NCBI GenBank assembly: GCA_002395805.1
Contig: DGVB01000026.1
Span: forward strand, 1-64,000
Length of the DNA: 64,000 nucleotides
Direction of reading: 5' to 3'
Source of the DNA: Bacteroidales bacterium UBA4295
Lineage (GTDB): Bacteria > Bacteroidota > Bacteroidia > Bacteroidales > Paludibacteraceae
A model generated the notes under the pieces. It saw only the letters and a list, made by a program, of their open reading frames with translations, was not told the origin of the DNA and searched no databases. Shown one piece after another: positions 4,675 to 64,000 of the stretch. Both the position numbers and the translations under genes were made by a program. Every line of letters starts with the position of its first letter. The stretch's first letter is position 1.

Positions 4675-4723
4675 TCTGTATTCTGTATTCTGTATTCTGT
4701 ATTCTGTATTCTGTACTCTGTAT
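4675..4723. repeat. Seven-copy heptamer array TCTGTAT
   Basis: Seven consecutive 7-bp units, six identical and one TCTGTAC, fill the gap between the S23-family gene and the stop codon of the endonuclease gene, which begins one base past the array. This is the cleanest heptamer array in the window. Confidence 0.95.
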
Positions 4724-4724
4724 T

Positions 4725-6512
4725 CTATTTCACTTTTTGTCCGGTGAGGTTGTAGAGTTCTTCGCCGAGGAGGATGAAGATCTGGCCACCGACGAGAATC
4801 TTACGCGCCGGAGCATCGGTCTCGATCAGTTGCACCTCCGAACCTTGCTGACAAGTAGTGATATAACGGATGTAAATATCGCTTGCACTACCGGCGTTAA
4901 TCGTAATCGACTGGATGCCGATACCCTTGCCCTGACCGTAGTCGGAAGCGAAAGTAAGTGCGGAGATGCCGGCGATATAGAGATTGTTGGTCCATGTATA
5001 TTCGGTCATCGTCGAACCGGATGTAGCCGTCATCGTAGCCAGTTGGCCGTCTGCCTCGTAGATATCCAGTTTGTCGTATTGCGCGCCGCCGTAGGTACGC
5101 ATCTTCACGACGATGGAGTTCAGTTGCGCCAGGTCGATTTCCGGCGAGACGATGGACTTGCCTTGCTCAAGCAGCCAGTACGAACCTTTCGACGTAGCGG
5201 TATTGGTCCATCCGTCCTGGTGATCCGCATCGAAGACATAAGTCGTCGGGAGCGATGGTTCGCTGACTGCCAGTTGCGCAAAGACCGCATAATAAGTTAC
5301 GTCAGCCGTAACCGCCGGGAAGTCCGCCAGAGCCTTATAGAGCACAGCCGGCGCATCGTCCTGCGTTCCGGAAATAGGTGCCGTGGTCCAGCCCATGAAG
5401 ACAGGGCTCTCCGACGAACATGAAACAGGTTCATCCGGCAGGGAAGCCGGTTTCTGGTTCTCCGCTACGGAATCGGTCTGCATCTCTTCTCCGTTAACCG
5501 ACCAGGTCACTCCATGTTTGGTCACACCCGGCTGCGGAGGCACTACTCCATTCCGCCAGCCGTTGCTGACACCCGGCACGAAGTCTGCATCCGAAGATGC
5601 CATCAGATGGGACATGTCGACCGTTTCTCCCGCATGTTCGCCCCAGATATACTCCGCCAGATACGGGTAATCGATAAACGGATTGCGGTTGCCCTGCGTC
5701 TTCTGAATACCGTTGTTGCGGTCAATCTCTTTCTGGGAAACCGGGTCCTCGCGATGCCATTTCAAAAGAAGAACCACTCCATATTTCGTCAGACCGAAAT
5801 GAGAGGATGTGAAGGATTCGAAGATGGAGCTGCCAGCACCGGAGGTAATTGAATAAGACGAATTATAATAGCTGGCAATCATGCCGAGATAGCCACGCGC
5901 AAAATCCCCTTTATACTGCGCACCCGGTTCAAAAACAGGGCTGGCAGAACAAGTAGCAGAAGTAGCATTGTAAATTGTCGCTTTCGTTGTACTAACTTCT
6001 TTCGGCGAACCTAATTTGCAGCCGTTATACTGGTAAGTAGCATTCGCCACTTCTCCAAACGCATATGCAGAACGGCGGTTATTGACATAACCATCCGTAG
6101 GCACAAGGTGGAAAATATCGCTATACATATTATTTTTTCCACCACCCCACCAACTTTTGGGGATAGAGTGCTCACGGTTCACGCAATCACATTCACCGCT
6201 ATAACTACCGCATCGCTTGCTATTTGTCGGGAACTCGCATCCTCCGTACATATCCCATAGTTTACCGGCTTTTCCTACGGAATCGGCCGGATAGACATCG
6301 GTATTAGGATAAGCACCCCAGAGACCGTCGTAACCGAGCGAAGAGAAACCCCTATTCGTCACGGTGTTCAAGGTAGTCATCAACGAACTACCTGATTTAT
6401 TGTTCAGACTGGCGTAATACGCGGGAATGTCCGCAGCGGGCGTAACCGTACCCGCAAAGATCCAAGGCGCAGCCAAAAGGAGCGCAAGGAAGGTAATGAT
6501 GTGTTTTTTCAT
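4725..6512 (-). CDS. Secreted endonuclease I family nuclease
   Basis: A 595-aa exported protein. The start chosen is the ATG giving MKKHIITFLALLLAAPWIFA, a clear signal peptide; the frame stays open 29 codons upstream but through the promoter. The endonuclease I (EndA/NucM) domain covers about residues 25-330, with the catalytic/metal motif NREHSIPKSWWGG near residue 111 and a Cys-rich loop just before it. A MGWTT...TYYAVFA domain (about 375-415) typical of Bacteroidales surface proteins follows, then a beta-rich domain. The last 25 residues (KILVGGQIFILL...YNLTGQKVK) resemble Bacteroidales C-terminal anchoring or sorting tails. It is probably an extracellular DNA-scavenging nuclease. Confidence 0.9.
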   Translation of the reverse strand: MKKHIITFLALLLAAPWIFAGTVTPAADIPAYYASLNNKSGSSLMTTLNTVTNRGFSSLGYDGLWGAYPNTDVYPADSVGKAGKLWDMYGGCEFPTNSKRCGSYSGECDCVNREHSIPKSWWGGGKNNMYSDIFHLVPTDGYVNNRRSAYAFGEVANATYQYNGCKLGSPKEVSTTKATIYNATSATCSASPVFEPGAQYKGDFARGYLGMIASYYNSSYSITSGAGSSIFESFTSSHFGLTKYGVVLLLKWHREDPVSQKEIDRNNGIQKTQGNRNPFIDYPYLAEYIWGEHAGETVDMSHLMASSDADFVPGVSNGWRNGVVPPQPGVTKHGVTWSVNGEEMQTDSVAENQKPASLPDEPVSCSSESPVFMGWTTAPISGTQDDAPAVLYKALADFPAVTADVTYYAVFAQLAVSEPSLPTTYVFDADHQDGWTNTATSKGSYWLLEQGKSIVSPEIDLAQLNSIVVKMRTYGGAQYDKLDIYEADGQLATMTATSGSTMTEYTWTNNLYIAGISALTFASDYGQGKGIGIQSITINAGSASDIYIRYITTCQQGSEVQLIETDAPARKILVGGQIFILLGEELYNLTGQKVK

Positions 6513-6568
6513 GATGTATTTTATGGTATGTGTATGCATGTATATGCGTGCAAAATTCAAAAAACGTA

Positions 6569-9710: not shown

Positions 9711-10396
9711 ATTTTGTTTTTTATTCGGATCTCAGGTGTGCTTTGCAAAACTATACTGTTAGCCGGAACATCTTGGGTTAACCAGATATTACCTCCGACT
9801 ACCGTATCATGACCGATGGTGACGCGACCGAGGATAGAAGTATTGGAATAGACCGTGACATGGTCCTCCAAAATCGGGTGACGAGGGATGTCTATCGGTC
9901 GACCTTGGTCATCGTATTCGAAATTCTTCGCTCCAAGCGTCACACCTTGATATAAGACGACATGCGAACCGATGATAGCCGTTTCGCCAATGACGACGCC
10001 GGTACCATGGTCGATGCAGAAATACTCGCCTATCTGCGCGGCAGGGTGAATATCTATTCCGGTGCGGCTATGCGCCAGCTCGGTCAACATACGCGGAATA
10101 CGCGGCACTCCGAGTTGGTACAACACATGGGCCGCGCGGTAATGAATCATCGCGTATTGCAGCGGGTAAGAAAGAATCACTTCGCCGCGATCTGTGACGG
10201 CAGGGTCATTATGCAGCACCGCATCCACATCGGTGTTAATAAGTCGTCTGATCTCGGGTATCTGCGCCCAGAACTCATCCGGCAGACAGAGATCGTCAGG
10301 GCGTGCCACCGCCGGATAATAGTCCGGGAAGATCTCTCCTTGCAGATACAAAACGAGTTGCTTTAATTGCGCTATACTAATAAATCCTTTGTACAT
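9707..10396 (-). CDS. cysE: Serine O-acetyltransferase
   Basis: A 229-aa enzyme that makes O-acetylserine from serine and acetyl-CoA, the first step of cysteine synthesis. The left-handed beta-helix region is clear from about residue 115, with HPAAQIGEYFCIDHGTGVVI and GETAIIGSHVVLYQGVTLGA, as in the EpsC type. It is shorter at the N-terminus than many EpsC proteins. It lies 21 bases downstream of cysK and overlaps lpdA by 4 bases, giving cysK-cysE-lpdA. The ATG start lies inside a small GTAC-rich repeat (10391-10420). Confidence 0.92.
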   Translation of the reverse strand: MYKGFISIAQLKQLVLYLQGEIFPDYYPAVARPDDLCLPDEFWAQIPEIRRLINTDVDAVLHNDPAVTDRGEVILSYPLQYAMIHYRAAHVLYQLGVPRIPRMLTELAHSRTGIDIHPAAQIGEYFCIDHGTGVVIGETAIIGSHVVLYQGVTLGAKNFEYDDQGRPIDIPRHPILEDHVTVYSNTSILGRVTIGHDTVVGGNIWLTQDVPANSIVLQSTPEIRIKNKI

Positions 10397-10417
10397 AGTA
10401 CATTGTTCCTTTGTACT

Positions 10418-11305
10418 TTATAAGACAGAGAGGTATCGTTCTCCGGTGTCGGGAAGAAGAACCACGATATTCTTGCCTTTGTATTCGGGTTGTCGGGTCA
10501 GTTGCAGCGCTGCAGCATAGGCTGCGCCGGACGAGATGCCGACGAGCAAGCCATGATCTGTGGCTAAAGAACGCGCCGCGGCAAAAGCCTCTTCGTCGGA
10601 AACAGTGAGAACGCGGTCAACATACGCCTGCTGGTAGGTCTCAGGGACGAAATTCGCACCGATACCCTGTATCTTATGCGGACCGGCATGACCTTCGGTC
10701 AGTACAGGAGACGAAGCGGGTTCGACGGCGATAACCTCGACGAGCATATTCTTTTCTTTCAACGCACGCCCTACTCCGCTCACCGTGCCGCCTGTACCTA
10801 CACCGGCAATGAAGACATCCACTTGTCCGGCGGTATCCTCCCAAATCTCCTGACCCGTAGTAGCATAATGGATAGCAGGGTTGGCAGGGTTAGTAAACTG
10901 GCCTAAAATAACCGCATTCGGCGTCTCGGCGCACAGCTGTTCCGCTTTCGCGACAGCTCCTTTCATGCCTTCGCTCCCGGGCGTAAGAACGAGTTCCGCG
11001 CCATAAGCCGCCAGCAGATTTCTGCGCTCTACGGACATGGTCTCCGGCATCGTGAGAATCACGCGATAGCCTTTGAGCCGGCCGATCCATGCGAGTCCTA
11101 CTCCGGTGTTGCCGGAAGTGGGTTCAATGATGGTAGCGCCCGAAGTCAACACACCGCTTTTCTCGGCGTCCTCAATCATCGCTAAAGCGGTACGGTCTTT
11201 GACCGAACCGCCGGGGTTGAAACGCTCCAATTTCAGTAACAAGCCCGGTTGTATCTCGAGCATCGGCGTGTGGCCGATCAAGTCCAATAAATTTCGTACT
11301 ATCAT
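10418..11305 (-). CDS. cysK: Cysteine synthase A (O-acetylserine sulfhydrylase)
   Basis: A 295-aa pyridoxal-phosphate enzyme that forms cysteine from O-acetylserine and sulfide. The PLP lysine is K36 in PGGSVKDRT; the substrate loop is PTSGNTGVG (about residues 63-71) and the phosphate-binding motif is GVGTGGTVSGVG (about 170). It acts directly with the next gene, cysE, and the two proteins often form a complex. A perfect inverted repeat lies 52 bases upstream of the start and may be its operator. Confidence 0.96.
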   Translation of the reverse strand: MIVRNLLDLIGHTPMLEIQPGLLLKLERFNPGGSVKDRTALAMIEDAEKSGVLTSGATIIEPTSGNTGVGLAWIGRLKGYRVILTMPETMSVERRNLLAAYGAELVLTPGSEGMKGAVAKAEQLCAETPNAVILGQFTNPANPAIHYATTGQEIWEDTAGQVDVFIAGVGTGGTVSGVGRALKEKNMLVEVIAVEPASSPVLTEGHAGPHKIQGIGANFVPETYQQAYVDRVLTVSDEEAFAAARSLATDHGLLVGISSGAAYAAALQLTRQPEYKGKNIVVLLPDTGERYLSVL

Positions 11306-13104: not shown

Positions 13105-13131
13105 AAATTAAAAATTAAAAATTATAAATTA
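13105..13131. repeat. AT-rich heptamer array (AAAAATT)
   Basis: About three and a half copies of a 7-bp AAAAATT unit fill the gap between the two permease genes. Confidence 0.8.
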
Positions 13132-22969: not shown

Positions 22970-23005
22970 GTTTAGAGGTTAGAGGTTAGAGGTTAGAGGT
23001 TAGAG
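22970..23005. repeat. AGAGGTT heptamer array
   Basis: Four perfect AGAGGTT units plus partial copies lie between the S9 peptidase stop and the thioesterase start; the array runs right up to the ATG. Confidence 0.92.
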
Positions 23006-23770
23006 ATGAAATACAATTACGAATACGAGATCAAGTACCAGGAGGTGGACGGAGAGAAAAAGCTTCGTCTCTTTAACCTGGAGAACTACCTGCTGGAAGT
23101 AGCAGGAACGGTGGCAGACGATTTGGGATTCGGCATTGCGGCATTGCATCCGCGGGGGCTGACATGGATCCTGACGCGGTTAAGCGTAGAGATGTATGAA
23201 CTGCCGACACACTGCCAGAAAGTGCGGTTCGAGACCTGGATCGAATCCAACGCACACATGCTGAGCACCCGTAATTTTAGGATATATGCAAAGCCGTCAG
23301 CGGTCAGCTCTCAGCCGTCAGACGCCAACAATCAGACCTCAGATGAATGGATATTAATCGGTGTTTGCAAGTCCGTATGGGCGGTGCTGGATCTGGAGAA
23401 ACGCGAGATTGTCAATATCTTCGACGACCCGATGTTTGAGGGCTGCGTGGACGGCGAAGTGATCGAGATGCCGCGCGTGCGCATGACCACGATCCCTGAA
23501 CCCACCGGCTGCGAGGTGCACAAAGTGGTGTATTCCGATATCGACTACAACGGGCATTGCAACTCCTGCCGCTATCTGCAGGCGATGACCGACGCCTATC
23601 TGCCTGATTACTACGGCAAGAAGGTACGGCTGGACATCAATTATTCGAAAGAGGCCATGTTAGGCGAGACGCTGCAGACCTACTATCTGGTCACCGAGGA
23701 AGGCGTGCAGTACCAGCAGAAGAACGAAGCCGGAGAGACCTCTTGCTCCGCCAAAATAACAATACAATAA
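23006..23770 (+). CDS. Acyl-ACP thioesterase
   Basis: A 254-aa double hot-dog protein of the FatA/FatB-like bacterial acyl-ACP thioesterases, which release free fatty acids from acyl carrier protein. Features are DDLGFGI near residue 38, LTRLSVEMY, FETWIE, and the second hot-dog with DIDYNGHCNSCRYL (about residue 180) holding the Asn/His of the active site. Residues about 95-113 (KPSAVSSQPSDANNQTSDEW) correspond to a degenerate 7-bp array between the two hot-dog halves. Confidence 0.9.
   Translation: MKYNYEYEIKYQEVDGEKKLRLFNLENYLLEVAGTVADDLGFGIAALHPRGLTWILTRLSVEMYELPTHCQKVRFETWIESNAHMLSTRNFRIYAKPSAVSSQPSDANNQTSDEWILIGVCKSVWAVLDLEKREIVNIFDDPMFEGCVDGEVIEMPRVRMTTIPEPTGCEVHKVVYSDIDYNGHCNSCRYLQAMTDAYLPDYYGKKVRLDINYSKEAMLGETLQTYYLVTEEGVQYQQKNEAGETSCSAKITIQ
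23292..23346. repeat. AGnnnnC heptamer array inside the thioesterase gene
   Basis: Eight successive 7-bp units of the form AGCCGTC, AGCGGTC, AGCTCTC, AGCCGTC, AGACGCC, AACAATC, AGACCTC, in frame and encoding a Ser/Gln/Pro-rich loop. The same family lies in porU and the DUF4292 gene. Confidence 0.88.
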
Positions 23771-26647: not shown

Positions 26648-27805
26648 ATGCCTAATACGCTAATATATAGCCGTTTATATGAGTGGTATGAGATCAACCG
26701 CCGCTCTCTCCCTTGGCGGGAGACGGAGGACCCCTATGCCATCTGGCTCAGCGAAATCATCCTCCAGCAGACCCGAGTGCTGCAGGGGCTGGACTACTAC
26801 CGCCGGTTTTTGAACCGCTGGCCTACGGTCGAGCTGTTAGCCGCAGCCGATGAAGCGGAAGTACTGCGCGAATGGCAGGGTCTGGGGTATTACTCCAGGG
26901 CACGAAACCTGCATAAAGCGGCGCAGATGATAGTAGAAAGACAAAAGTCGAAAGTCGAAAGCCAAGAGATACCTGCCTATCATTTTCCGCAGACTTTCGA
27001 AGAGATACGTGCTTTGCCCGGGGTAGGAGAATACACAGCGGGAGCGATTGCTTCGTTTGCCTACAACCTGCCCTACCCTGCCATGGACGGCAATGTCTAT
27101 CGCGTTGTGGCGCGGCTGCTGGACATAGACGAACCCTTCGACACCGCGGCGGGCAAGAAACTGTTTCACAAGAAGATAGAGGAACTACTGGATAGAGACA
27201 ACCCGCGGCTTTTCAACTCCGCTATCATGGAGTTCGGAGCCCTTTACTGCACGCCGACGCTGAGCGAAGAGACCTGCTCCGAGTGTCCGCTTGCGGATTT
27301 CTGTCTGGCGCATGCTCATGGCACGGCCTCGCTGCTCCCCGTCCGCAAACCGCGACCGAAAGTACGCGACCGGTGGTTCGACTACCATATTTACCTGGCA
27401 ACCTCTCCCCTGAGTTCTACGGACAGCCATTGGCAGTCCGATCGAGCAGAGCTCTTCACCCCTCAAGGGAGGGAGACAGATTCACTCATAATGACCCTCA
27501 TCCGGCGGCGGGAGAATCCGAAGGACATATGGTATCATCTCTATGAGTTTCCCTGCGAGGAGCTCATGAGTCCTACAGGCGAAGCCGATCCTACAGCGAA
27601 GCGGTCTTACAGCGAAGCGGTCTGCGAATTCACGCATGTACTTTCGCACCAACGCATCCACGCGCGGTTTATAGTACATAAGGTACAAAAAATGCCGGAG
27701 ATACCCGGCACTTTGCTCATTCACTGGGAGGAGCTCAATGATTTTGCCCTTTCCCGATTAACGCTGCGAGCGCTTGATACACTGCTACCTTCTCTTCCGC
27801 GGTAA
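26648..27805 (+). CDS. mutY: A/G-specific adenine glycosylase
   Basis: A 385-aa base-excision enzyme that removes adenine opposite 8-oxoguanine. The catalytic Glu is E36 in LSEIILQQT; the helix-hairpin-helix is LPGVGEYTAGA, and the catalytic Asp is in PAMDGNV (about 146). The 4Fe-4S cysteines are C-x8-C-x2-C-x5-C (about 200-219); the usual first gap is six. Three repeat-derived inserts are present: RQKSKVESQ (about 97-106), a stretch at about 252-277, and SPTGEADPTAKRSYSEA (about 308-326). The last 71 bases overlap the convergent DUF2520 gene. The ATG start is used rather than an upstream TTG. Confidence 0.94.
   Translation: MPNTLIYSRLYEWYEINRRSLPWRETEDPYAIWLSEIILQQTRVLQGLDYYRRFLNRWPTVELLAAADEAEVLREWQGLGYYSRARNLHKAAQMIVERQKSKVESQEIPAYHFPQTFEEIRALPGVGEYTAGAIASFAYNLPYPAMDGNVYRVVARLLDIDEPFDTAAGKKLFHKKIEELLDRDNPRLFNSAIMEFGALYCTPTLSEETCSECPLADFCLAHAHGTASLLPVRKPRPKVRDRWFDYHIYLATSPLSSTDSHWQSDRAELFTPQGRETDSLIMTLIRRRENPKDIWYHLYEFPCEELMSPTGEADPTAKRSYSEAVCEFTHVLSHQRIHARFIVHKVQKMPEIPGTLLIHWEELNDFALSRLTLRALDTLLPSLPR
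26937..26964. repeat. AAAGTCG heptamer array inside mutY
   Basis: Four 7-bp units, AAAGACA, AAAGTCG, AAAGTCG, AAAGCCA, in frame in the HhH domain region. Confidence 0.85.
27401..27478. repeat. Two CCCCT..AGGG half-elements inside mutY
   Basis: CCTCTCCCCTGAGTTC at the left and CACCCCTCAAGGGAGGGAG at the right flank a short unrelated segment, all in frame near the start of the C-terminal domain. Confidence 0.7.
27571..27624. repeat. TACAGCGAAGCGGTCT repeat inside mutY
   Basis: Three imperfect copies of a 16-bp unit, the reverse complement of the mutA insert at 2681-2753, in frame near the C-terminal domain. Confidence 0.85.
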
Positions 27806-28511
27806 AGCCGTCTCCTTCTTTCGTACTTGGTACTTGTTTACTTAGTACTTCTATTTGATGCTCCATCACCGCTTGATCCCCGCGCTGCGCAGGACCTGTC
27901 TGTGCGTCGGCGGGCTTCATCTTATGCACCTTGGCGGCGGTGTTGTCGATCAGCGGCAGAAGCGCTTCGAACGGGATCTGCGTGTCTTGTAATATATCCG
28001 CGGCGATACGGTACATCAGATTCGTGTAATTATTGGCAAAAACGCCGGCTATATGCAGCCGCTCGCGGTCATGCTGGTTCGCTTCGTAGATGCGGCTCGT
28101 AAGGGTCTGCGCCAGCGAATAGATCGCCGCGATGTCGTCTATGTTACGACCCGATATGAAGCAGGGAATGCCGCTCCATTCGTCTATCAGCACCTCGCGG
28201 CTGAAACTCTGGAAGAAATACAGAATGCCCGAGTGCGGTTTGTCTTCGCCGAACACCTCTATCGGCATCGTGCCGGACGTATGCAGGTGCAGCGCCTTCG
28301 GCGCATGGATCTTGCTCACCACCTCCCGCAGCGCCTGATCCGCGATAGCGTAGATATACACGTCAAAACCATTTACCATTTGGTCATTTACCATTTGGTC
28401 ATTTGCTGTCAGCGGTCTGGCATGTATGAGTTCGGTCTTGATTCCTTTGAGGGTGAAAGCATGGTGGAGGTTCGTCCCCACGCTCCCCGCGCCTAAAATA
28501 ACTATTCTCAT
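27735..28511 (-). CDS. DUF2520 / Rossmann-fold oxidoreductase-like protein
   Basis: A 258-aa protein with an N-terminal NAD(P)-type motif (VILGAGSVGTNL) and a DUF2520 C-terminal domain (GVFANNYTNLMYRIA). It resembles the ketopantoate-reductase-like DUF2520 proteins; no reaction is established. Two repeat-derived inserts are visible: NDQMVNDQMVNG (about residues 36-48) and SKQVPSTKEG near the C-terminus. The start overlaps the M20 stop by 4 bases, and the 3' end overlaps mutY by 71 bases on the other strand. Confidence 0.82.
   Translation of the reverse strand: MRIVILGAGSVGTNLHHAFTLKGIKTELIHARPLTANDQMVNDQMVNGFDVYIYAIADQALREVVSKIHAPKALHLHTSGTMPIEVFGEDKPHSGILYFFQSFSREVLIDEWSGIPCFISGRNIDDIAAIYSLAQTLTSRIYEANQHDRERLHIAGVFANNYTNLMYRIAADILQDTQIPFEALLPLIDNTAAKVHKMKPADAQTGPAQRGDQAVMEHQIEVLSKQVPSTKEGDGFTAEEKVAVYQALAALIGKGQNH
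27824..27851. repeat. TACTTGG-type heptamer array inside the DUF2520 gene
   Basis: Units TACTTGG, TACTTGT, TTACTTAG, TACTTCT, in frame near the protein's C-terminus. Confidence 0.8.
28368..28404. repeat. ACCATTT array inside the DUF2520 gene
   Basis: ACCATTT, ACCATTT, GGTCATTT, ACCATTT, GGTCATTT: 7/8-bp units read as the repeated peptide NDQMV on the minus strand. Confidence 0.88.
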
Positions 28512-29929
28512 CCCTTAATTGTGCATTGTGAATTGTGCATTGTGAATTCTTTATAGAATTCAGCAACCGCGATAATTCCTTTTTCCCAGACCTCCAGGTC
28601 CATGGATTCGTTCGGCGAATGGATGGCGTTCTGCTCCAGACCGAAGCCCATGAGAATGGTCTTGCAGCCGAGGATCTGCTCAAAGGCGGCGATGATAGGG
28701 ATAGACCCGCCTCTTCGTGCCGCTAACGGACGCTTGCCGAAGGCAACCTCGAATCCTTTCTCCGCGGCTTTGTAAGCAGGAATGTCTATCGGACAAACAT
28801 ACCCCTGCCCGCCGTGCATCGGCGTCACCTGCACACGCACACCTCTTGGCGCGAGGGTTCCGATATAGTCTATGAACGCCTGTGAGATCTTCTCATGATC
28901 CTGGTTCGCCACCAGCCGGCAGGACACTTTCGCGAAAGCCTTGCCCGGCAGCACGGTCTTCGAGCCCTCACCCGTATATCCGCCCCAGATGCCGCATATG
29001 TCGAACGAAGGACGGCAGGAGTTGCGTTCGAGCGTCGAATATCCCTTTTCGCCGAACACGTCGTCCACATCGATAGCTTTGTTGTAGGCTTCCTGCGAGA
29101 AAGGTATCTGCGCTATCATCGCCCGTTCCTCTTCGGGGATCGGCAGCACATCGTCGTAGAAACCCGGGATGGTGATTTTGCCGTCTTTGTCCACTATCTT
29201 CGCCAGCATCTCGCAAAGGGCGTTCACGGGGTTCTTCACCGCTCCGCCGAAATGTCCCGAGTGCAGGTCTCTGTTCGGACCATCCACTTCGATCTGCCAG
29301 TAGGCCAGACCGCGCAGACCGGTGGTGATAGAGGGTGTCTCTTTGCCGATCATGGAGGTGTCGGAGACCAGGATAATATCGGCTTTGAGGAGGTCTTTGT
29401 GTTCCTCCAAGAAGGCTTCGAGACTCGGCGAACCGATCTCTTCTTCGCCCTCGAAGATGAACTTGACGTTGCATCGGAGTTGCCCTGTTTTGACCATGTA
29501 TTCAAAGGCCTTCGCCTGAATCATCGCCTGCCCTTTGTCATCATCTGCACCGCGTGCATAAAGCCGCCCGTCGCGGATCTGAGGCTCCCAAGGATCGGAT
29601 CTCCACTGCTCCACCGGCTCCACCGGCATCACATCGTAATGCGCATAGACGAGGACGGTAGGAAAGCCTACCCCCTGCCCCTCCCTAAAGGGAGGGGTGT
29701 ACTCCGCATAGACGAAGGGGTTGCCTTCTCCCCCTTTAGGGGGCCGGGGGGCTAATACTTCCGCTTTCTGGCAGCCGGCTTCGAGCAGCAACTCTCTCCA
29801 CCGCTCGGCGCAGCGAACCATGTCCGCTTTGTGTTCCGCTTGACAGCTCACACTCGGTATCCGAATGAGACTTGCCCACTCTTCCATAAACCGCGCTCTA
29901 TGCGCGCTGATGTAGTCCTGAATAGTCAT
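28508..29929 (-). CDS. M20-family dipeptidase
   Basis: A 473-aa zinc peptidase close to dipeptidases of the M20 PepV/CNDP group. Metal and catalytic motifs are HYDVMPV, GADDDKGQ, EGEEEIGSPS and SDTSM, with the last ligand in NAIHSPNE near the C-terminus. Two palindromic-element inserts lie at about residues 58-87 (LAPRPPKGGEGN and TPPFREGQGVG). The final residues FTMHNSQCTIKG are encoded by a heptamer array that reaches the stop codon. It is followed by DUF2520 with a 4-base overlap. Confidence 0.92.
   Translation of the reverse strand: MTIQDYISAHRARFMEEWASLIRIPSVSCQAEHKADMVRCAERWRELLLEAGCQKAEVLAPRPPKGGEGNPFVYAEYTPPFREGQGVGFPTVLVYAHYDVMPVEPVEQWRSDPWEPQIRDGRLYARGADDDKGQAMIQAKAFEYMVKTGQLRCNVKFIFEGEEEIGSPSLEAFLEEHKDLLKADIILVSDTSMIGKETPSITTGLRGLAYWQIEVDGPNRDLHSGHFGGAVKNPVNALCEMLAKIVDKDGKITIPGFYDDVLPIPEEERAMIAQIPFSQEAYNKAIDVDDVFGEKGYSTLERNSCRPSFDICGIWGGYTGEGSKTVLPGKAFAKVSCRLVANQDHEKISQAFIDYIGTLAPRGVRVQVTPMHGGQGYVCPIDIPAYKAAEKGFEVAFGKRPLAARRGGSIPIIAAFEQILGCKTILMGFGLEQNAIHSPNESMDLEVWEKGIIAVAEFYKEFTMHNSQCTIKG
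28518..28548. repeat. ATTGTGM heptamer array at the 3' end of the M20 gene
   Basis: ATTGTGC, ATTGTGA, ATTGTGC, ATTGTGA, ATT. The array encodes the last residues of the peptidase. Confidence 0.92.
29668..29755. repeat. Two palindromic elements inside the M20 gene
   Basis: CCCCTCCCTAAAGGGAGGGG (29677-29697 region) and CCCCCTTTAGGGGGCCGGGG (29730-29750 region) lie about 30 bases apart, both in frame, in the first third of the peptidase. Confidence 0.88.
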
Positions 29930-37483: not shown

Positions 37484-37500
37484 TCGCGCGAAGATAAGAA

Positions 37501-37535: not shown

Positions 37536-37536
37536 T

Positions 37537-38171: not shown

Positions 38172-39488
38172 ATGGCAAATATTGTAGCGATAGTGGGTCG
38201 TCCCAACGTAGGGAAATCGACTCTGTTTAACCGCTTGACGGGCACCCGTCGGGCGATAGTGATGAACACCGCAGGTACGACGCGCGACCGCCAGTACGGC
38301 AAAGCCGAATGGTGCGGACGGGAGTTCTCCGTCATTGATACCGGAGGATGGGTGGTCAACAGCGACGACACCTTCGAATCCGAGATCAACCGTCAGGTGG
38401 ACCTCGCCATCCGCGAATCGGATGTGGTACTGCTGGTAGTGGATGTGAACGAAGGAGTGACCGAGTTTGACATGGAGGTAGCGCACTTGCTCCGGCAAGC
38501 AAAGAAACCGACCATCCTGGCGGTCAACAAAGTAGATACCTTCGAGAACCAATACGGTGCGGCAGAGTTCTACAAACTCGGTCTCGGCGAACCCTTCATC
38601 GTCTCGGCCGAGAACGGTCTGGGTACAGGTGATCTGCTGGACGAAGTGGTAGGACGTTTCCGCAAAGAAGACGACTCGGACGAGGAACTGGAAGAGTTAC
38701 CCCGTTTTGCGATAGTAGGCCGTCCCAATGCCGGCAAGTCCAGTATTCTGAATGCCTTCATCGGCGAAGAGCGGACAATCGTGACCGACATCCCCGGCAC
38801 CACACGCGACTCCATCTACACGCGGTACAACAAGTTCGGCAAGGATTTTTATTTAGTCGATACAGCCGGAATCCGCAAGAAAGCGAAGGTGACAGAAGAT
38901 CAAGAGTATTACTCCGTCGTCCGTTCCATCCGTGCGATAGAAAACAGCGACGTCTGCATCCTCATGATCGACGCCACACGCGGCATTGAGTCGCAGGACC
39001 TGAATATCTATTCGCTGATCCAGAAGAACAAAAAAGGTCTGGTTGTATGTATCAACAAATGGGATCTCATAGAGAGCAAAACCAACGCGGATATCAAGGC
39101 TTACGAGTCTGCTATCCGCGAACGTATAGCACCGTTCACCGACTTCCCTATCATCTTCACTTCGGCGCTCACCAAACAGCGTATATTCAAAGTGGTAGAG
39201 ACGGCCATCCATGTCTATGAGAACAAGAACAAGAAAGTGCCGACGGCGCAACTGAACGAGAAATTCCTGCCGCTGATCGAGAACTATCCGCCGCCCGCAT
39301 GGAAAGGCAAATATATCAAAATCAAATACTGTACCCAGTTGCCGAACACCCAGATTCCGACCTTCGTATTCTTTGCAAACCTGCCGCAATACGTGAAAGA
39401 GCCGTACCGCCGATTCTTAGAGAACAAACTGCGCGAGTGGTGGGATTTCACGGGTACACCGGTACAGCTGTTCATAAGAGCAAAGTGA
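38172..39488 (+). CDS. der: Ribosome biogenesis GTPase Der (EngA)
   Basis: A 438-aa double GTPase needed for 50S assembly. The first G domain has GRPNVGKST (about 9-17), DTGGW and NKVD. The second has GRPNAGKSS (about 181), DTAGIRKK and NKWD. A C-terminal KH-like domain ends with [23 protein letters not shown]. Length and motifs are standard. The stop codon opens the next heptamer array (39487). Confidence 0.97.
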
Positions 39489-39514
39489 AAGTTGAAAGTT
39501 GAAAGTTGAAAGAT
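39487..39514. repeat. GAAAGTT heptamer array
   Basis: GAAAGTT x3 then GAAAGAT. The array starts within the der stop codon and precedes the next promoter. Confidence 0.92.
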
Positions 39515-39578: not shown

Positions 39579-39609
39579 CGCACTTTTTGTGCGCTCCGCC
39601 TGCAGCGAG

Positions 39610-40167
39610 ATGAAAATAATAGGCTTTGTATATAGTCAAAAGTCGCAAGACGAAAGTCGAAAGACAGAAAGCGAGTGGGAGATGGTGCTGAAAGGCGACA
39701 GCTGTCTGCTGAACGGACGCAAGCCGTTTTTCCTACCGGAAGGCACGCACGAGATAGGGGCAACCGAGTGTGTTATCCTGCGTGTGAGCCGTTTGGGCAA
39801 AGGGATCGCGCCTAAGTTTGCCGCCCGCTATTATGACGCTGTCGCACCCGGAGTGGATTTCATTGCGATGGATCTGCTACGCAAAGCGCAAGCCGCAGGC
39901 AAGCCCTGGACCCAGGCAATTGCTTTTGACTACTCGCTGGCGATAGGAGAATGGAACGATGTACGAAGTGACGATGTACGAAGTACGAAGGATTCCTTGG
40001 TTCTTTCGCCTGAGGAAGCGATAGCGGAGGCGAGCAAGACGATGACCATCCGCCAAGGGGACTTGATTTATATTCAGAAAAAGCAAGCTCCGCGGCTCGT
40101 GCAAAAAGAAGAAATCATTCGCATGGAGATAGACGGCGAAGAGAAATTGTATTGTAAGATCAAATGA
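39610..40167 (+). CDS. Divergent fumarylacetoacetate-hydrolase-fold protein
   Basis: A 185-aa protein that keeps the FAA hydrolase skeleton (LNGRKPFFLPEG, VSRLGKGIAPKFAARYYDA, GVDFIAMDL, EEAIAEASKTMTIRQGDLIYI) but looks degraded. The acid pair usually seen as YE-x-E is GATEC, the lysine of the KGxPWE..K block is lost (KPWTQAIAFD), and the segment between IGEW and the C-terminal part is missing and replaced by a repeat (DVRSDDVRSTKDS). A second array forms the N-terminal SQKSQDESRKTES. The start at 39610 is preferred over an upstream GTG. Its stop overlaps porU by 4 bases. Enzyme activity is doubtful; it may have been co-opted or be decaying. Confidence 0.7.
   Translation: MKIIGFVYSQKSQDESRKTESEWEMVLKGDSCLLNGRKPFFLPEGTHEIGATECVILRVSRLGKGIAPKFAARYYDAVAPGVDFIAMDLLRKAQAAGKPWTQAIAFDYSLAIGEWNDVRSDDVRSTKDSLVLSPEEAIAEASKTMTIRQGDLIYIQKKQAPRLVQKEEIIRMEIDGEEKLYCKIK
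39638..39672. repeat. GAAAGTC heptamer array inside the FAA-like gene
   Basis: AAAAGTC, GCAAGAC, GAAAGTC, GAAAGAC, AGAAAGC: five units, in frame near the N-terminus. Confidence 0.88.
39962..39990. repeat. TACGAAG heptamer array inside the FAA-like gene
   Basis: TACGAAG, TGACGATG, TACGAAG, TACGAAG in frame, at the position where the family's middle segment is missing. Confidence 0.88.
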
Positions 40168-50966: not shown

Positions 50967-51532
50967 AAATATATATATACATAGCATTGATTCCTTGCAT
51001 GCTGATACTCATCGGTTGCGGAGCAAAGAAGCAGTCAGCAGTCAGCAGTCAGCAATCCGAAGTCAGCCAGGAGCCGGAAGAGCCGGCATGGCACACCTGT
51101 CTGATCCAGAGTGCCCGTGCCGCTATCTACACCAACGACGACAAGATCTCGGCGAATCTGACGATGCAAACCGTGCGTGACTCGATGATAGTGATTTCTG
51201 TCATGCCGATGTTCGGCATAGAAATGATGAGGATAGAAGCGACTCCTCTTGAAATCATTGCGATTGACAAGATTCATGGCCAATATGCCATCGCTTCCTT
51301 CGCGGAACTAAATCGCAAATTGACACCCAGCCTCAATTGGGATATCTTGCAGCAGATTACTACCGGCGAGTTACCTACGGGTGAGGAAAAAGCGCGGTTG
51401 GTATACACCTTTGGCGAAGATATGGTCGAACTCGTCATTAACTACTCTCCCCGTAAGTTAGATGTGCCCGTCCGCGTCGGCAACCAACGGTTAGACAAAT
51501 ATACACGAATCGATATCAGCAAATGGCTATAA
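50963..51532 (+). CDS. DUF4292 lipoprotein
   Basis: A 189-aa lipoprotein with lipobox LIGC (Cys16). Its mature part matches DUF4292: a LolA/LolB-like half-barrel (SMIVISVMPMFGIEMMRIEA, KIHGQYAIASFAEL). Such folds bind lipids or lipoproteins; a LolB-like role is plausible but unproven. Residues about 23-36 (KQSAVSSQQSEVSQ) come from a heptamer array right after the lipobox. Its stop overlaps the EnvC-like start (TAATG). Confidence 0.83.
   Translation: MKIYIYIALIPCMLILIGCGAKKQSAVSSQQSEVSQEPEEPAWHTCLIQSARAAIYTNDDKISANLTMQTVRDSMIVISVMPMFGIEMMRIEATPLEIIAIDKIHGQYAIASFAELNRKLTPSLNWDILQQITTGELPTGEEKARLVYTFGEDMVELVINYSPRKLDVPVRVGNQRLDKYTRIDISKWL
51030..51068. repeat. AGCAGTC heptamer array inside the DUF4292 gene
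   Basis: AGCAGTC x3, AGCAATC, CGAAGTC. In frame, giving a Ser/Gln-rich tether after the lipid-modified Cys. Confidence 0.93.
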
Positions 51533-52704
51533 TGAAACACATATTGGTCCTTTGTCTCTGCTTTTTACTCTTTGTCCCTGCATGGGGAGAGAATGTGAAA
51601 GACCTGCAGAAAAAGCAAAAGAAGCTGCAGCAGGAGATCGAACAGACAAACAAGATGCTAAAGCAGACAAAGAAAGACGAGACGGCAACGATGAACAAGT
51701 TGCAGCTAATCGGCAAGAATATCCAGAACCAGAAAAAACTGATACACACGCTGGATAATGAAATCACAGCGCTGAATCGCGAGATGAATCAGTTAAGCAG
51801 CAAACGAGACTCGTTGCAAACAGTGCTGGATGGATATAAAGCTGATTATGCCGAGATGGTTTGTCAGAGCCACTATGCGCGCGTGCAACAATCGCCTCTG
51901 CTGTTTCTGCTTAGCAGCGATAATTTCCAGCAGTTAGCACGCCGTGCACGATACCTGCAGGAGTTTGCCCATTTCCGTCAGGAACAGGTGCGTCGCATTG
52001 AACGCACACAGGCCGAAATAGATACCCAAAACGAACTGCTGCAGGTCAACAAGAGCGACAAACAGACGGCATTGAGCACACGCAAACGGGAGCAGGAGAA
52101 TCTCAAACGCGACGAGCGCAAACAGCAAAGTATGCTGTCTCAATTGAAGAGCAAAGAGAAAGACCTGACCAAGCAGATTCAGCAGAAGCAGAAGAAAGTG
52201 AGTGAACTGAACAAGAAGATCGACGAAATGGTTCGCAAGCAGGCAGAAAAAGCCTCCAAGACTACGCTGACCAAAGAACAGCAATTGATAGCAGGAGGAT
52301 TTGAAGCCAATAAAGGGAGATTACCATGGCCGGTAGAAAAAGGTATGATCAGCGGACATTTCGGCAAACAACAACACCCTGTATACAGCCAAGTGACGAT
52401 AGACAACAAAGGTATTTATCTCCAGACCGTAGCCGGAACGAAAGCACGGTCCGTGTACAAAGGCGAAGTGACCAGTTGTTTCATGGTAGGCGGTACGTAC
52501 GCTGTGATCATCCAGCACGGTAACTACCGAACGGTATATTCCAACCTTTCCAAACTTGCTGTCAAACAAGGTGATATGGTAGAGACAAAACAAGTGATCG
52601 GCACCATCTTCACCGACCCCGAGCAAGACCAGAAAACAGAATTATATTTCCAGATTTACAAAGATAGAAACATTCTAAATCCCGAATTATGGATAGCAAA
52701 ATAA
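51532..52704 (+). CDS. EnvC-like murein-hydrolase activator with degenerate LytM domain
   Basis: A 390-aa protein: signal peptide (MKHILVLCLCFLLFVPAWG), a long coiled coil (about 25-255, rich in Lys/Gln/Glu) and a C-terminal LytM/M23 domain (about 265-390). The zinc residues are lost: the GIDL motif reads GIYL, the TVYSHL motif reads TVYSNL, and the final HFEI reads YFQI. This matches EnvC, which is not a hydrolase but activates amidases under control of FtsEX. An alternative start at 51523 would overlap DUF4292 by 10 bases. Confidence 0.88.
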   Translation: MKHILVLCLCFLLFVPAWGENVKDLQKKQKKLQQEIEQTNKMLKQTKKDETATMNKLQLIGKNIQNQKKLIHTLDNEITALNREMNQLSSKRDSLQTVLDGYKADYAEMVCQSHYARVQQSPLLFLLSSDNFQQLARRARYLQEFAHFRQEQVRRIERTQAEIDTQNELLQVNKSDKQTALSTRKREQENLKRDERKQQSMLSQLKSKEKDLTKQIQQKQKKVSELNKKIDEMVRKQAEKASKTTLTKEQQLIAGGFEANKGRLPWPVEKGMISGHFGKQQHPVYSQVTIDNKGIYLQTVAGTKARSVYKGEVTSCFMVGGTYAVIIQHGNYRTVYSNLSKLAVKQGDMVETKQVIGTIFTDPEQDQKTELYFQIYKDRNILNPELWIAK

Positions 52705-53231
52705 AGTTGAAAGTAGAAAGTTTAAAGTTGATAGTTATTGCGCTTATCGCGCTCTTCTTTCTGCCCGGATGCAAGACCAATAACTGGGCGGACTGGAAAG
52801 TGCAGAACGAGATATGGCTGGAGCATAACAAAACCCAGGATAGTGTGCAGGTATCCTCTACCGGTCTGCAATACAAAATCATCAAGGACCCTTTGAAAGA
52901 TACCGGAGAGATCACACCGAATCCGACAGCAACGATTGTATGTGATTATAAACTCAAACTCATCAACGGGAATATTATTGAAGCCAATAATAATGTAACA
53001 CTCTCACTTGCTTCCGTCATTGCCGGCTTTGCTGAAGGATGTCATAAGATACATGTTCATGGCGACATCGAGTTATATATCCCAGCCTATTTAGGATACG
53101 ACAAGATGAAATTCGACTCAAACGAATATGGCAGTGCTGAAGGTTTCGGCACGGAAGGCACCCAGAGTTATATTCCTCCCTATTCCACCCTCATTTATAC
53201 GATTCATCTATGCAGCGTAGTGGGAAATTAA
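52689..53231 (+). CDS. FKBP-type peptidyl-prolyl isomerase lipoprotein
   Basis: A 180-aa FKBP-domain lipoprotein. The lipobox is LPGC (Cys28). The FKBP core runs STGLQYKIIKDP, then TATIVCDYKLKLINGNIIE, and ends STLIYTIHLCSV. Some active-site aromatics are absent, so catalysis may be weak. The first 14 residues (MDSKIKLKVESLKL) are encoded in a heptamer array and supply the charged start of the signal peptide. A TTG at 52728 would omit them. Confidence 0.82.
   Translation: MDSKIKLKVESLKLIVIALIALFFLPGCKTNNWADWKVQNEIWLEHNKTQDSVQVSSTGLQYKIIKDPLKDTGEITPNPTATIVCDYKLKLINGNIIEANNNVTLSLASVIAGFAEGCHKIHVHGDIELYIPAYLGYDKMKFDSNEYGSAEGFGTEGTQSYIPPYSTLIYTIHLCSVVGN
52704..52731. repeat. AAGTTGA heptamer array at a gene junction
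   Basis: AAGTTGA, AAGTAGA, AAGTTTA, AAGTTGA. It starts in the EnvC stop codon and forms the signal-peptide start of the next gene. Confidence 0.92.
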
Positions 53232-54108: not shown

Positions 54109-54677
54109 GTAAAAAACTGACGACAGCAGAGATGGGTCGCATGAACGTGGACCAGTACCGCGAAGCGGATAAACTGCCGCTGGTGGTCGTTCTCGACAAT
54201 GTACGAAGCCAGCATAATGTAGGTGCGGTCTTTCGTACGGCAGACGCCATGCGCATTGAGCGAGTCGTGCTATGCGGTATCTGTTGCTGCCCGCCTAATC
54301 AGGAGATTCATAAAACCGCACTCGGTGCGGAAGAGAGCGTAGCATGGCAGTATTACAAGGATACCAAAGAAGCCGTGCAGGCGCTACAGGACGAAGGATA
54401 TACCGTTTATGCCGTAGAGCAGGCACACGATTCTGTCACTCTCGAAGAGGTGGCAGAACAAATTTCAAAGATCAAAGATCAAAGTTCAAATAGTTCTAAA
54501 ATAGCTGTAGTTTTAGGACATGAAGTGTTCGGTGTACAGCAAGAAGTAGTAGATATTTGCACTCAATGCATAGAGATACCCCAATACGGAACGAAGCACT
54601 CGATGAACGTGTCAGTAACGGCAGGCATCGTGATGTACCGCTTAGCCTCCTCTCTCCGGCTCGCGACAAAGAAGTAG
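54105..54677 (+). CDS. TrmH/SpoU-family RNA 2'-O-methyltransferase
   Basis: A 190-aa SPOUT methyltransferase. Motif 1 is VLDNVRSQHNVGAVFRTADA, motif 2 VVLGHEVFGV, and motif 3 GTKHSMNVSVTAGIVMY, the knot. The target (tRNA or rRNA) is unknown. A TCAAAGA array adds SKIKDQSSNSSK before motif 2. The last 112 bases overlap the U32 gene in another frame. Confidence 0.9.
   Translation: MSKKLTTAEMGRMNVDQYREADKLPLVVVLDNVRSQHNVGAVFRTADAMRIERVVLCGICCCPPNQEIHKTALGAEESVAWQYYKDTKEAVQALQDEGYTVYAVEQAHDSVTLEEVAEQISKIKDQSSNSSKIAVVLGHEVFGVQQEVVDICTQCIEIPQYGTKHSMNVSVTAGIVMYRLASSLRLATKK
54466..54493. repeat. TCAAAGA heptamer array inside the SpoU gene
   Basis: TCAAAGA, TCAAAGA, TCAAAGT, TCAAATA, in frame and followed by a Ser-rich stretch. 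Confidence 0.9.
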
Positions 54678-62279: not shown

Positions 62280-62283
62280 AGGA

Positions 62284-63678
62284 ATGAAGAAGGATAAAGG
62301 AGGAAGAAGGATGAGAGTTATGAGATATAGGTACCAACATATTCTATTGCTGCTTATGGCGGTATGGATGGCGGGCTGTCAGTTCCGCAAGGACGAATAC
62401 GTCGATTTCACAGACCTGACGGGTGCAGGCAACCTGACATTCCGCGTTATCGGTCAGAACGAGCGGGACCTGAGCGAAGGCATCCCGAGCGACTGCTATC
62501 TGCCGGACGGCACACCGGTGTGGGAGTATTCAGATGCCGTTGAGTCCGAACCCGCGTCAGAGAGCAGAGAGGCAGGACCTGCCGGTCCCCGCCGTACCAG
62601 TTCGGTTACCGGAGCAGGAATACTGCAAGAGCTGCTCAAATACGGAAACCAGAACAAGATTATCGAAGTGGTAGGTACTTACCCGAGCATAGATATTGAT
62701 GGCAACCCAATCACCCTTTCCGGCAAAGTGATGCTGCCCAAGAATGGCATCCCCAAACGGATGATTATCGTGAGCCATTATACCGTTTGCTCCAACGCCG
62801 AAGCCCCCAGCAACTGTTTCTCCCTCGAGGGCATGCTGGTAAGAAGCGGATATGGTCTTATCATTCCGGATTATATCGGTTACGGCGTTACGGAAAAGGA
62901 GGTACACCCGTATCTGGTGATGGACGTAACGGCGCATAACGTAGTGGATATGTATCTGGCAGTCAAACCATGGTTAGAAGCTATCGGACGCAAAGCGGAT
63001 GACCCCAGTCTGGATCTCATGGGCTACAGTCAGGGCGGCGCAACCACGATGGCGGTGCAGTACCTGATAGAGACCGAATACAGCAACGCGAGTAGCATTG
63101 ATCATATCATGCTCCACCGTGTGTTTGCCGGCGGCGGTCCGTACGATGTCAAAGCTACCTACGAGCGTTTCGTCAACACCGACACGGCAGGATACCCGGT
63201 TGCCGTTCCGCTCGTTCTGCAAGGAATGATCAAGGGCAACAAACTGAACATGCAGATGGAGGATATGATGCAGCCCTGGCTATGCGAGCATATGGAGAAC
63301 TGGATCAACAGCAAACGGTTCACCTCCGCCCAGATCAACAAAATGATCGGCACAAAGGTCACTCATGAACTGCTGACCGCCGAGGCAATGGAGCAGAAGT
63401 CCGAAAAAGTGGCGGAGCTGTACAAAGCGATGACCCTGAACTCCATCATTGCCTACGACTGGGATCCCCGAGCCCCGGTCTATATGATGCACTCTATGGA
63501 CGACGAGACAGTGCCGTACACCAACGCCACGCATGCCCGGACACATTGGAAAGATGCCAACATCACCTATAATTTCGGGCACTACGGCGGGCACGTGCTG
63601 ACCTGCTTGCGATTTATCTATACCGTACAAGAGTTGTTAGCCAACGAAGAGGCAGAAAGGAAGAAATATGAGAACTAA
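62284..63678 (+). CDS. Alpha/beta-hydrolase lipoprotein (secretory-lipase-like)
   Basis: A 464-aa lipoprotein with lipobox MAGC (Cys32 from the first ATG). The nucleophile elbow is LMGYSQGGATT (Ser about 248). The acid is in HSMDDETVPY and the His in FGHYGGH. The fold resembles secretory lipases and other large esterases; the substrate is unknown. The 5' end is repetitive (GAAGGATAAAGGAGGAAG), so ATG codons at 62311 or 62320 are also possible starts. It overlaps the next gene by 11 bases. Confidence 0.83.
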   Translation: MKKDKGGRRMRVMRYRYQHILLLLMAVWMAGCQFRKDEYVDFTDLTGAGNLTFRVIGQNERDLSEGIPSDCYLPDGTPVWEYSDAVESEPASESREAGPAGPRRTSSVTGAGILQELLKYGNQNKIIEVVGTYPSIDIDGNPITLSGKVMLPKNGIPKRMIIVSHYTVCSNAEAPSNCFSLEGMLVRSGYGLIIPDYIGYGVTEKEVHPYLVMDVTAHNVVDMYLAVKPWLEAIGRKADDPSLDLMGYSQGGATTMAVQYLIETEYSNASSIDHIMLHRVFAGGGPYDVKATYERFVNTDTAGYPVAVPLVLQGMIKGNKLNMQMEDMMQPWLCEHMENWINSKRFTSAQINKMIGTKVTHELLTAEAMEQKSEKVAELYKAMTLNSIIAYDWDPRAPVYMMHSMDDETVPYTNATHARTHWKDANITYNFGHYGGHVLTCLRFIYTVQELLANEEAERKKYEN

Positions 63679-64000
63679 AGACCGCGGCTACGCCGCTCAA
63701 AGCCAAAAGACCGCTACGCTCAAAGACAAAAGACCTACACGGACTCGACGAATCATATTCGGTCTTATGTCTTATGTCCTGGCGCTTGGTTCTGTACTCA
63801 TAGCTCCCTCCTGCAATACGGAGGCGAACTACGAGACGAAGGATGTGGAAGTGAGGATGGCTGTCACGAATGTGTCCTCGGGTTTCATTGAATGTGAGTA
63901 CTATACCAACAAGGATGCTTATTACCTCATCGCTATCTGTGAGCCGTGGGAGGGCTACAACCCCATCACCAACTCCAAACAATTCATGCAACTGGCGCTG
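63668..64000 (+). CDS. Exported lipoprotein, truncated by the window edge
   Basis: An open frame of 111 codons that runs off the end. The first ATG (63668) lies inside the hydrolase gene. Residues 5-28 (RGYAAQSQKTATLKDKRP) are encoded by a repeat, and the hydrophobic part (LMSYVLALGSVLIAPSC) carries a lipobox ending at Cys48. An ATG at 63767 would remove the repeat-coded part. The visible mature sequence (AVTNVSSGFIECEYYTNKDA) resembles beta-sandwich surface lipoproteins, but no family is fixed. Confidence 0.7.
   Translation, partial: MRTKDRGYAAQSQKTATLKDKRPTRTRRIIFGLMSYVLALGSVLIAPSCNTEANYETKDVEVRMAVTNVSSGFIECEYYTNKDAYYLIAICEPWEGYNPITNSKQFMQLAL
63680..63737. repeat. AAGACCGC.. / CTCAAAGACAAAAGACC repeat
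   Basis: AAAGACCGCGGCTACGCCGC, TCAAAGCCAAAAGACCGC and TACGCTCAAAGACAAAAGACC are imperfect copies of one unit, in frame in the start of the last gene. A TCTTATG heptamer pair follows at 63763-63776. Confidence 0.82.

Follow-up and report, generated by a model that had tools for sequence, protein, structure and literature searches.

The 64,000-nucleotide stretch at positions 1 to 64,000 (forward strand) of contig DGVB01000026.1 from Bacteroidales bacterium UBA4295 of the Paludibacteraceae (assembly GCA_002395805.1), called the window below, carries short tandem arrays with a period of 7 bp both between and inside genes, which raises the question of what process places heptamer arrays at so many sites. 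An earlier note, made from the sequence alone, had proposed a process such as slippage or repair that produces 7-bp-periodic DNA. We examined the host genome (the window is contig 7 of a 40-contig, 1.50-Mb assembly that is 61% complete), 80 loci of relatives from the same genus, 121 species-level genomes of the genus for pattern searches, and samples of loci rather than whole genomes from other genera of the family (19 loci, 363 kb) and from eight order-level outgroups (19 loci, 347 kb). The relatives, named via their Der (EngA) gene, are Paludibacteraceae or Bacteroidales with metagenome-assembled genome (MAG) or uncultured labels, mostly from rumen and gut. With a probability of about 0.52, a considerable share of the arrays represents copies of dispersed ~26-34-bp elements whose interior is built of heptads.

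In the window, Tandem Repeats Finder (TRF) listed 20 period-7 rows at a score of at least 30, in agreement with the earlier count of at least 20 arrays; three of the rows (11475, 38014, 43594) have just 2.1 copies, and the length of 3-8 units given before was about right. Lag-7 runs of at least 10 matches numbered 10 in the window, compared to a mean of 0.05 in Markov-3 sequence, and 189 in the host genome (1.40 Mb after removal of N), compared to 2.2 in Markov-4 sequence. Exact runs of at least 14 bases occurred 75 times at lag 7, 63 times at lag 14, 29 times at lag 21, and 11 times at lag 11; lag 28 was also raised, and each of the lags 1 to 6 gave 0 or 1. Similarly, TRF rows of the host genome with a score of at least 45 comprised 162 of period 7, 22 of period 8, 5 of period 9, and 43 of period 11, with a single row for periods 1 to 6 together. 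The genome-wide period distribution, which the earlier note had recommended as a check, therefore has a strong excess at 7. The 11-base class, represented in the window by a tandem array at 30070-30115, is among the commonest after 7 and its multiples.

The distribution of the period-7 trait is patchy. Within the genus, 58 of the 80 loci had at least one lag-7 run of at least 10 matches. The loci from other genera of the family contained 18 such runs, 17 of them from two genera; one of these loci (L229, genus g22) is very dense, with 12 runs in 20 kb and TAACTGA among its units. In the outgroup loci, one such run and no exact lag-7 run of at least 14 bases was found. The lengths of the lag-7 arrays in the host genome showed a peak at 26-34 bp (127 of 271 arrays), followed by 17 arrays at 35-43 bp. 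This peak argues against slippage alone, which should give a falling curve.

The evidence for copying comes from two unit families with a fixed internal order. Family C follows the pattern AwGTACN-AwGNGACN-AwGTACN-AwGTACN-AwG, which spans ~32 bp with a spacing of 7-8-7-7, so that the second unit has 8 bases (order XYXX, with Y as the odd unit). At up to three mismatches, the host genome contained 46 matches to XYXX, 7 to XXYX, 12 to YXXX, none to XXXY, and 13 to the regular XXXX. Over the 121 genus genomes, XYXX gave 1,556 matches in 83 genomes (0 to 126 each) and the shifted order XXYX 304 matches in 57 genomes, some of which overlap XYXX arrays, so that the counts are not independent; the reversed-pattern control gave 0 for both. 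With a slightly stricter pattern, matches were obtained for 10 of the 13 genus genomes searched; the eight order-level outgroups had no match. The copy number of family C differs widely between species of the genus. A phage origin was rejected, as an exact 28-base pattern had 0 matches in viral_contigs. Family H follows the pattern ATTTACG ATTTNACG ATTTACG ATTTACG ATTTA. Here, the host genome gave 8 matches to XYXX at up to four mismatches, compared to 1, 1, 0, and 0 for the other orders, and the 121 genomes gave 330 matches in 58 genomes, with a reversed control of 0 and a shifted control in the host only. Moreover, an irregular H array of 34 bases is identical at L020:3106 in the host and at L065:9963 in another species, which are non-orthologous places. 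The sequence ATGTACG is frequent among the H units; it agrees with the C unit and differs from the H unit by a single base, so that C and H look like one superfamily. The fixed order is firmly established for family C and can be claimed with fair confidence for family H.

Shifted controls were passed by families C and H only, and arrays beyond these two were assigned to unit families through clustering alone. A universal X-Y-X-X rule for all families was dropped, as TRF trims odd end units and the strand is free. Nevertheless, the irregular arrays as a whole carry a signal of order: in a test that removed duplicated DNA in part (12 of 208 arrays dropped) and was confined to lengths of 24-60, 107 of 171 irregular arrays matched their best non-orthologous partner better than the mean of four shuffles and 46 matched worse (p = 9e-7), and 78 of the 171 fell into clusters of at least three. 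The units, described before as unrelated, are so in part only. They are indeed many, with 39 distinct sense units among 103 spacer arrays, and yet exact unit sharing between host sites (12 of 326 arrays dropped, which removes duplicated DNA in part) amounted to 2.8% in spacers and 3.6% in coding DNA, compared to 0.37% and 0.14% for base-permuted units, i.e., a 7- to 26-fold excess; between host and relatives it was 1.1-1.2%. Some AATAATG arrays (L176:3326-3375, L176:10679-10790, L161:8121-8175) are followed by a recurring non-periodic tail, TTGCRAAGCATTAATCGTTTG, and may therefore belong to a longer dispersed repeat.

The arrays of the window and their relation to the open reading frames (ORFs) are as follows.

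4675..4726, minus strand: 7.4 copies of the heptamer TCTGTAT; the stop codon of ORF 4725-6599 (also minus strand) lies here
10387..10418, minus strand: family C element with 7-8-7-7 spacing, which fits the degenerate pattern with 1 mismatch
13105..13131, minus strand: tandem AAATTAA heptamers; the stop codon of ORF 13129-14304 lies here
22972..23005, plus strand: tandem TTAGAGG heptamers in the spacer that separates ORF 20765-22963 from ORF 23006-23770
23292..23321, plus strand: TCAGCCG-type array within ORF 23006-23770; the surrounding stretch adds 18 residues compared to relative G003
26932..26961, plus strand: family A element AGTAGAAAGACAAAAGTCGAAAGTCGAAAG
27819..27850, minus strand: family C element in ORF 27735-28511, peptide EVLSKQVPSTK; fits the stricter pattern with 3 mismatches
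28368..28404, minus strand: family D array CATTTACCATTTGGT with 7+8 spacing, in ORF 27735-28511
28517..28548, minus strand: family B element (AATTGTG), C-terminus of ORF 28508-29929, peptide EFTMHNSQCTI
36978..37010, plus strand: family C-type element in ORF 34727-37483, peptide EVPSDQVPSD
37494..37541, plus strand: AATAATG-type array in a spacer; the orthologous spacer is different in most relatives
39482..39512, plus strand: AAAGTTG array spanning the stop codon of gene 38172-39488, named Der (EngA) by NCBIfam
39634..39663, plus strand: family A element (AGTCGAA), in frame near the N-terminus of ORF 39589-40167
39959..39990, plus strand: family C element, in frame in ORF 39589-40167, peptide VRSDDVRSTK
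51030..51067, plus strand: AGCAGTC array inside ORF 50963-51532, peptide QSAVSSQQSEVSQ
52703..52736, plus strand: AAAGTTG array at the stop of ORF 51523-52704
54465..54490, plus strand: TCAAAGA array inside ORF 54105-54677
63762..63778, strand not assigned: GTCTTAT array, short, 2.4 copies

Between 40164 and 44807, the window also contains type IX secretion genes, among them those for a PorU-like sortase and PorV (NCBIfam).

The coding copies occur in variable linkers and loops of proteins, and two families prefer one reading frame. For family C, the frame count refers to the best 45 of 58 matches; 27 copies lie in sense orientation within called genes, and 20 of these are in one frame (p = 2e-5), which mostly reads xV[P/Q/R]SDxV[P/Q/R]STK. 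The GTGAC form puts a stop codon in one of the frames, so that the null of one-third is generous just in part; the preferred frame also exceeded the open second frame, by 20 to 3 (p = 5e-4). For family A, 8 of 13 copies share one frame, mostly xVESxKSKVES (p = 0.03). As the free base of CNA is the second codon position, the DNA rather than the peptide seems to be conserved.

With respect to placement, genes were called by a non-standard codon-score ORF picker, which assigned 77% of the host bases as coding. The earlier estimate that about half of the arrays lie in coding DNA was too high: among the 162 arrays (period 7, score at least 45), 52 were mostly coding, 22 partially coding, and 88 non-coding. 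Given the 77% of coding bases, the arrays avoid genes. At a score of at least 40, 115 arrays lie within called genes of the host genome and the 80 loci together. Host arrays with two flanking genes (n = 89) were co-directional in 81 cases, convergent in 7, and divergent in 1, compared to ~75%, 14%, and 11% expected from spacer length (p = 6e-4), and the genus loci (n = 141) gave 112, 19, and 10 (p = 2e-9). The 11-base arrays behave differently, with 31 of 78 located in divergent spacers of the genus loci. In the co-directional spacers of the host genome, the upstream stop codon was within 10 nt of the array in 53 of 81 cases, compared to 37 (34-42) under random gap placement, whereas closeness to the start codon was as random (39 of 81 compared to 37 [33-42]). 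The sense strand of spacer arrays is A/T-rich with a C fraction of 0.07-0.09, compared to 0.18-0.22 in coding arrays; ten convergent host arrays are equally C-poor on the plus strand, so that the skew may not reflect sense. A role as three-frame stops, in which stop-bearing units close all frames behind genes, was rejected: 50 of 81 arrays had this property, compared to 47 (41-53) in column-permuted arrays.

Orthologous sites of relatives are filled differently. Eight junctions were considered, of which two gave no data and one overlapping junction was excluded; in the remaining five, each represented by 68-75 genomes with the window among them, a period-7 array was present in 87 of 358 spacers and absent from 271. 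The arrays fell into 6-12 unit clusters per junction, and the median lengths of spacers with a period-7 array and with no tandem repeat were 38 and 20, 34 and 20, 99 and 71, 99 and 85, and 39.5 and 5 bases. By eye, the spacer downstream of Der and the 37483/37531 spacer are enclosed by conserved flanks and hold either no array or a variety of them, such as AAAGTTG, TCAGNNN, GGCGAAA, TGATTGA, and GTATGGT, and the Der stop codon itself is likewise met by different arrays or none. Common descent was rejected as an explanation for the units shared at a junction: sharing was 18-21% in the three bins below a Der identity of 0.87, which hold 758 of the 774 pairs; the 16 pairs with a Der identity of at least 0.87 are too few to judge. 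In L091, L099, and L119, a common GC-rich sequence of ~120 bases, TCGCGCGAACTACGGCTCAATACGACTCGCG, occupies the spacer orthologous to window 37483/37531 in place of heptamer arrays.

The earlier note had named sister genomes carrying the same arrays as old conserved sequence as an outcome that would speak against its idea; we found mostly different fillings, with exceptions such as the element at 36978, which is identical in L062 and L063 and partial in L064, with 54-108 bases of other sequence elsewhere among the aligned loci. The best pair of filled and empty sites is the linker near window 34850, which reads AEDSIP-KPKKESEL in the window and AEDSIP-EVRSDDVRSTK-ADSIQPEA-KPKKESEL in L064; at the same linker, L098 has another family C copy, while L063 and L099 carry arrays of the TCAGCCG type. 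The loop with the element at 39634 is ~10 residues longer than in most relatives compared, and local matches of ORF 28508-29929 to G003 and G006 stop within the first residues of the family B element. In L092, the orthologue of ORF 39589-40167 has an N-terminal loop with an extended series of 6-residue (18-base) repeats of the TEAVRG / TEAERE type, which occupies the same loop as the heptad element in the window orthologue.

In the reading that we favour, a copy-and-insert process would place pieces of ~30 bp. The simplest route would be templated insertion by strand switching in replication or break repair, with an existing array as the template. Copies would be kept where a spacer-like or hydrophilic stretch is harmless, and replication slippage would afterwards add, remove, and even out units. 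Dispersal plus later slippage is favoured because close relatives show no peak of 7-bp indels and because an irregular order common to unrelated sites needs copying or strong convergence. The proposal of the earlier note thus holds in that many sites, many units, and fast turnover with no single element were observed; its further part, a process of this kind rather than the spread of one element, is not supported in that form for families C and H, where the evidence is that of the spread of a specific irregular array of ~32-34 bp.

Several observations weigh against this reading, besides the overlap between XXYX and XYXX matches mentioned above. More than half of the irregular arrays (93 of 171) lie outside any cluster of at least three, families A and E have no preferred place for the odd unit (8 compared to 8 and 28 compared to 28, respectively, at the loosest setting), and family B has no frame preference (5 of 12, p = 0.37). 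In the genus loci, the mode of array length is broader (23-31 bp) and the fall-off slower. The coding copies at 27819, 28368, and 39959 replace sequence of about equal length in relatives: the G003 orthologue is merely 3 residues shorter at the first and 2 residues shorter at the second site, and the 39959 loop is about as long as the other loops of most relatives. The linker that holds the element at 36978 varies greatly in length, and the L064 linker near 34850 differs from the window by 57 bp, of which 33 are element. A clean insertion with target-site duplication was not found; the L098 and L064 sites have no clean empty counterpart, the L103 and L112 sites could not be aligned with any of the relatives tried, and the remaining compared sites are too diverged. 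Finally, tandem indels of 7, 14, and 21 bp show slippage at work.

The latter indels, which lie inside arrays and separate close species, also belong to the case for local replication slippage with a 7-base step. Under this explanation, loops of 7 bases are favoured by the length of the polymerase contact, arrays expand from the sequence already present at a site, and the favoured units recur independently many times; we regard it as possible at rather low odds. Among the long repeats of many bacterial genomes, heptamers are the prevailing class, for which a polymerase contact of 7 nt has been proposed (Mrazek 2007, as reported in excerpts of PMC4692102 and PMC4679880). The raised lags 14, 21, and 28 and the coding copies that swap a loop without lengthening it fit slippage as well. 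However, indels in 14 close pairs (76-98% identity) show no peak at 7 (22 events of 6, 14 of 7, 13 of 8, and 14 of 9 bases), and growth in place is also at odds with the array lengths in the host, the fixed position of the odd unit in C and H, the irregular 34-mer that is identical at two non-orthologous sites, and the unit-order test. Slippage normally favours short units, and lags 1 to 6 are nearly empty in the host genome. Loss of mismatch repair was not supported as a cause, since MutL was present in 20 of 21 genomes of relatives and MutS1 exceeded the threshold in 54 of the 61 genomes of the family, with G041 and G070 of the same genus among them; in the 61%-complete host assembly the MutS1 match is weak and partial. 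A link to reverse transcriptase was set aside as well, as RVT_1 occurred in 7 of 21 genomes and showed no pattern with family C by eye. An artefact of metagenome assembly is very improbable: the relatives do carry the labels MAG, 'mag', or uncultured, and the host assembly is incomplete, but of the 121 separate assemblies 83 contain family C and 58 contain family H, and a single open frame is kept by most of the C copies in sense orientation within genes.

Selection for a spaced recognition site would account for the co-directional bias in host and genus loci, the crowding of arrays near the upstream stop codon, the C-poor sense strand in spacers, and the mixture of constant and free positions in family C. 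It assumes that a DNA- or RNA-binding protein or the ribosome needs motifs spaced by 7 nt and that arrays, however they arise, are kept because they function, for example, as unstructured operon spacers. This is unlikely, as one function would have to be served by many dissimilar units, most relatives lack a period-7 array at the five junctions, many arrays lie within called genes, three-frame stops are no commoner than in permuted arrays, and convergent arrays share the C-poor plus strand. Also to be weighed is a movement of the elements by a REP-type Y1 (HUH) transposase, in the way that REPINs are thought to be moved by RAYTs, which we judge improbable and treat, for family C, as a weak lead. 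Y1 proteins (PF01797) occur in the genus, and the 359-amino-acid Y1 protein of the host has matches in 82 of the 121 genomes, often several. Genomes with such a match have a median of 5 family C copies (n = 82), compared to 0 in those without (n = 39; p = 3e-6), and at a completeness of at least 90% the medians are 4 (n = 37) and 1 (n = 16; p = 0.005), both uncorrected for kinship; the host gene for this protein has three C copies at distances of up to about 2 kb. On the other hand, 9 of 10 fetched Y1 loci (2.6-4.1 kb each) are without a C copy, several of them with other repeats, 17 Y1-bearing genomes lack family C, and G160 (96% complete), G110, and G089 have 11, 12, and 36 copies without a Y1 match. 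The comparison for at least 10 copies at a completeness of at least 90% gave p = 0.08, and six elements had no strong hairpins (RNA fold z-scores of -1.5, -1.7, -0.6, 0.7, 0.8, and 0.5). The Y1_Tnp gene (PF01797, 359 amino acids) at L052:13334-14413 (G000 contig 32) lies beside a tandem GC-rich repeat of ~59 bases, GCACCTGTCGTTTACC, with a run of N inside.

More tentatively, the dispersed elements may represent a class of non-palindromic miniature mobile DNA of ~30-34 bp whose sole common mark is a heptad programme of four units, one often of 8 bases. Such a class would spread genus-wide by copying, in frame into linkers and into operon spacers, and species would swap heptad families at one site; in each event, an enzyme would use a ~7-nt template four times, by stamping or copying. 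The slippage model becomes testable here, with one genus as a natural experiment in which a family of fixed architecture ranges from 0 to 126 matches per genome and orthologous sites are differently filled. Our results also suggest that a part of the bacterial 'simple repeats' are very small dispersed elements that alter protein linkers as well.

In open-licence PubMed Central, we found no paper on tandem repeats of Paludibacteraceae or heptanucleotide repeats of Bacteroidales, and the titles and abstract starts among the search results contain no description of heptad elements in the host genus; the combination of many heptad families, a fixed 7-8-7-7 spacing, ~30 bp, in-frame copies, and differing fillings at orthologous sites was not met in these searches. 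The statement of the earlier note that it knew of no named system has to be corrected in one respect, since the dominance of heptanucleotides in repeat-rich bacterial genomes was reported in 2007 (Mrazek, Guo and Shah, via excerpts of PMC4692102 and PMC4679880). The arrays resemble heptanucleotide long simple sequence repeats, as described in these excerpts, in that tandem heptamers are far above chance, the most abundant class, and sporadic across lineages. They differ from these repeats, which are explained by slippage, in the irregular ~32-34-bp order of families C and H and the in-frame genic copies.

Several individual heptamers are described in the excerpted texts: GGGAATC of Xanthomonas and GGGGA(T/C)T of Nostoc (PMC4692102), TAACTGA in Beggiatoaceae, cyanobacteria, and a few Bacteroidetes (PMC4679880), and a mixture of TAACTGA with a range of other heptamers in Microcystis (said in PMC4692102 and PMC4679880). 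The Xanthomonas heptamers vary in length and sequence between close relatives, with five of seven positions conserved (PMC4692102). As far as these excerpts go, such systems share with ours the dispersed, mostly intergenic heptamer arrays. Each of these papers, however, followed one unit, unlike the 39 sense units and the ~30-bp families with irregular order found here, and TAACTGA of Beggiatoaceae is one fixed unit located mostly just upstream of start codons, whereas here the units are many and start closeness is random.

Among mobile elements, PMC4596501 concerns a minisatellite within a miniature inverted-repeat transposable element (MITE) of Porphyromonas gingivalis. REPINs, in the portion of PMC3116915 available, are likewise small non-autonomous dispersed DNA, and a Y1 enzyme occurs in our genus; they consist of paired palindromes located beside a RAYT gene, unlike the elements here, which have no strong hairpin and C copies near 1 of 10 fetched Y1 loci. 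The Rickettsia palindromic elements (RPE; Ogata et al. 2000, via an excerpt of PMC10969869) are repeats that lie in frame in protein genes unrelated to one another, and a particular peptide recurs within each family. Families C (20 of 27) and A (8 of 13), in contrast to B, resemble them in their in-frame copies in unrelated genes with a preferred frame; RPE are palindromic and about 150 bp long, whereas the elements here have ~30-34 bp and no strong fold. The small dispersed repeats (SDR) of Nostoc, which are very small and mobile (Elhai et al. 2008, Genome Res 18:1484, as cited in the excerpt of PMC3116915), share with our arrays the presence of a short element at many unrelated sites of one genome. 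In this comparison, made by description only, the elements here belong to another phylum and are marked by their heptad interior and their in-frame coding copies.

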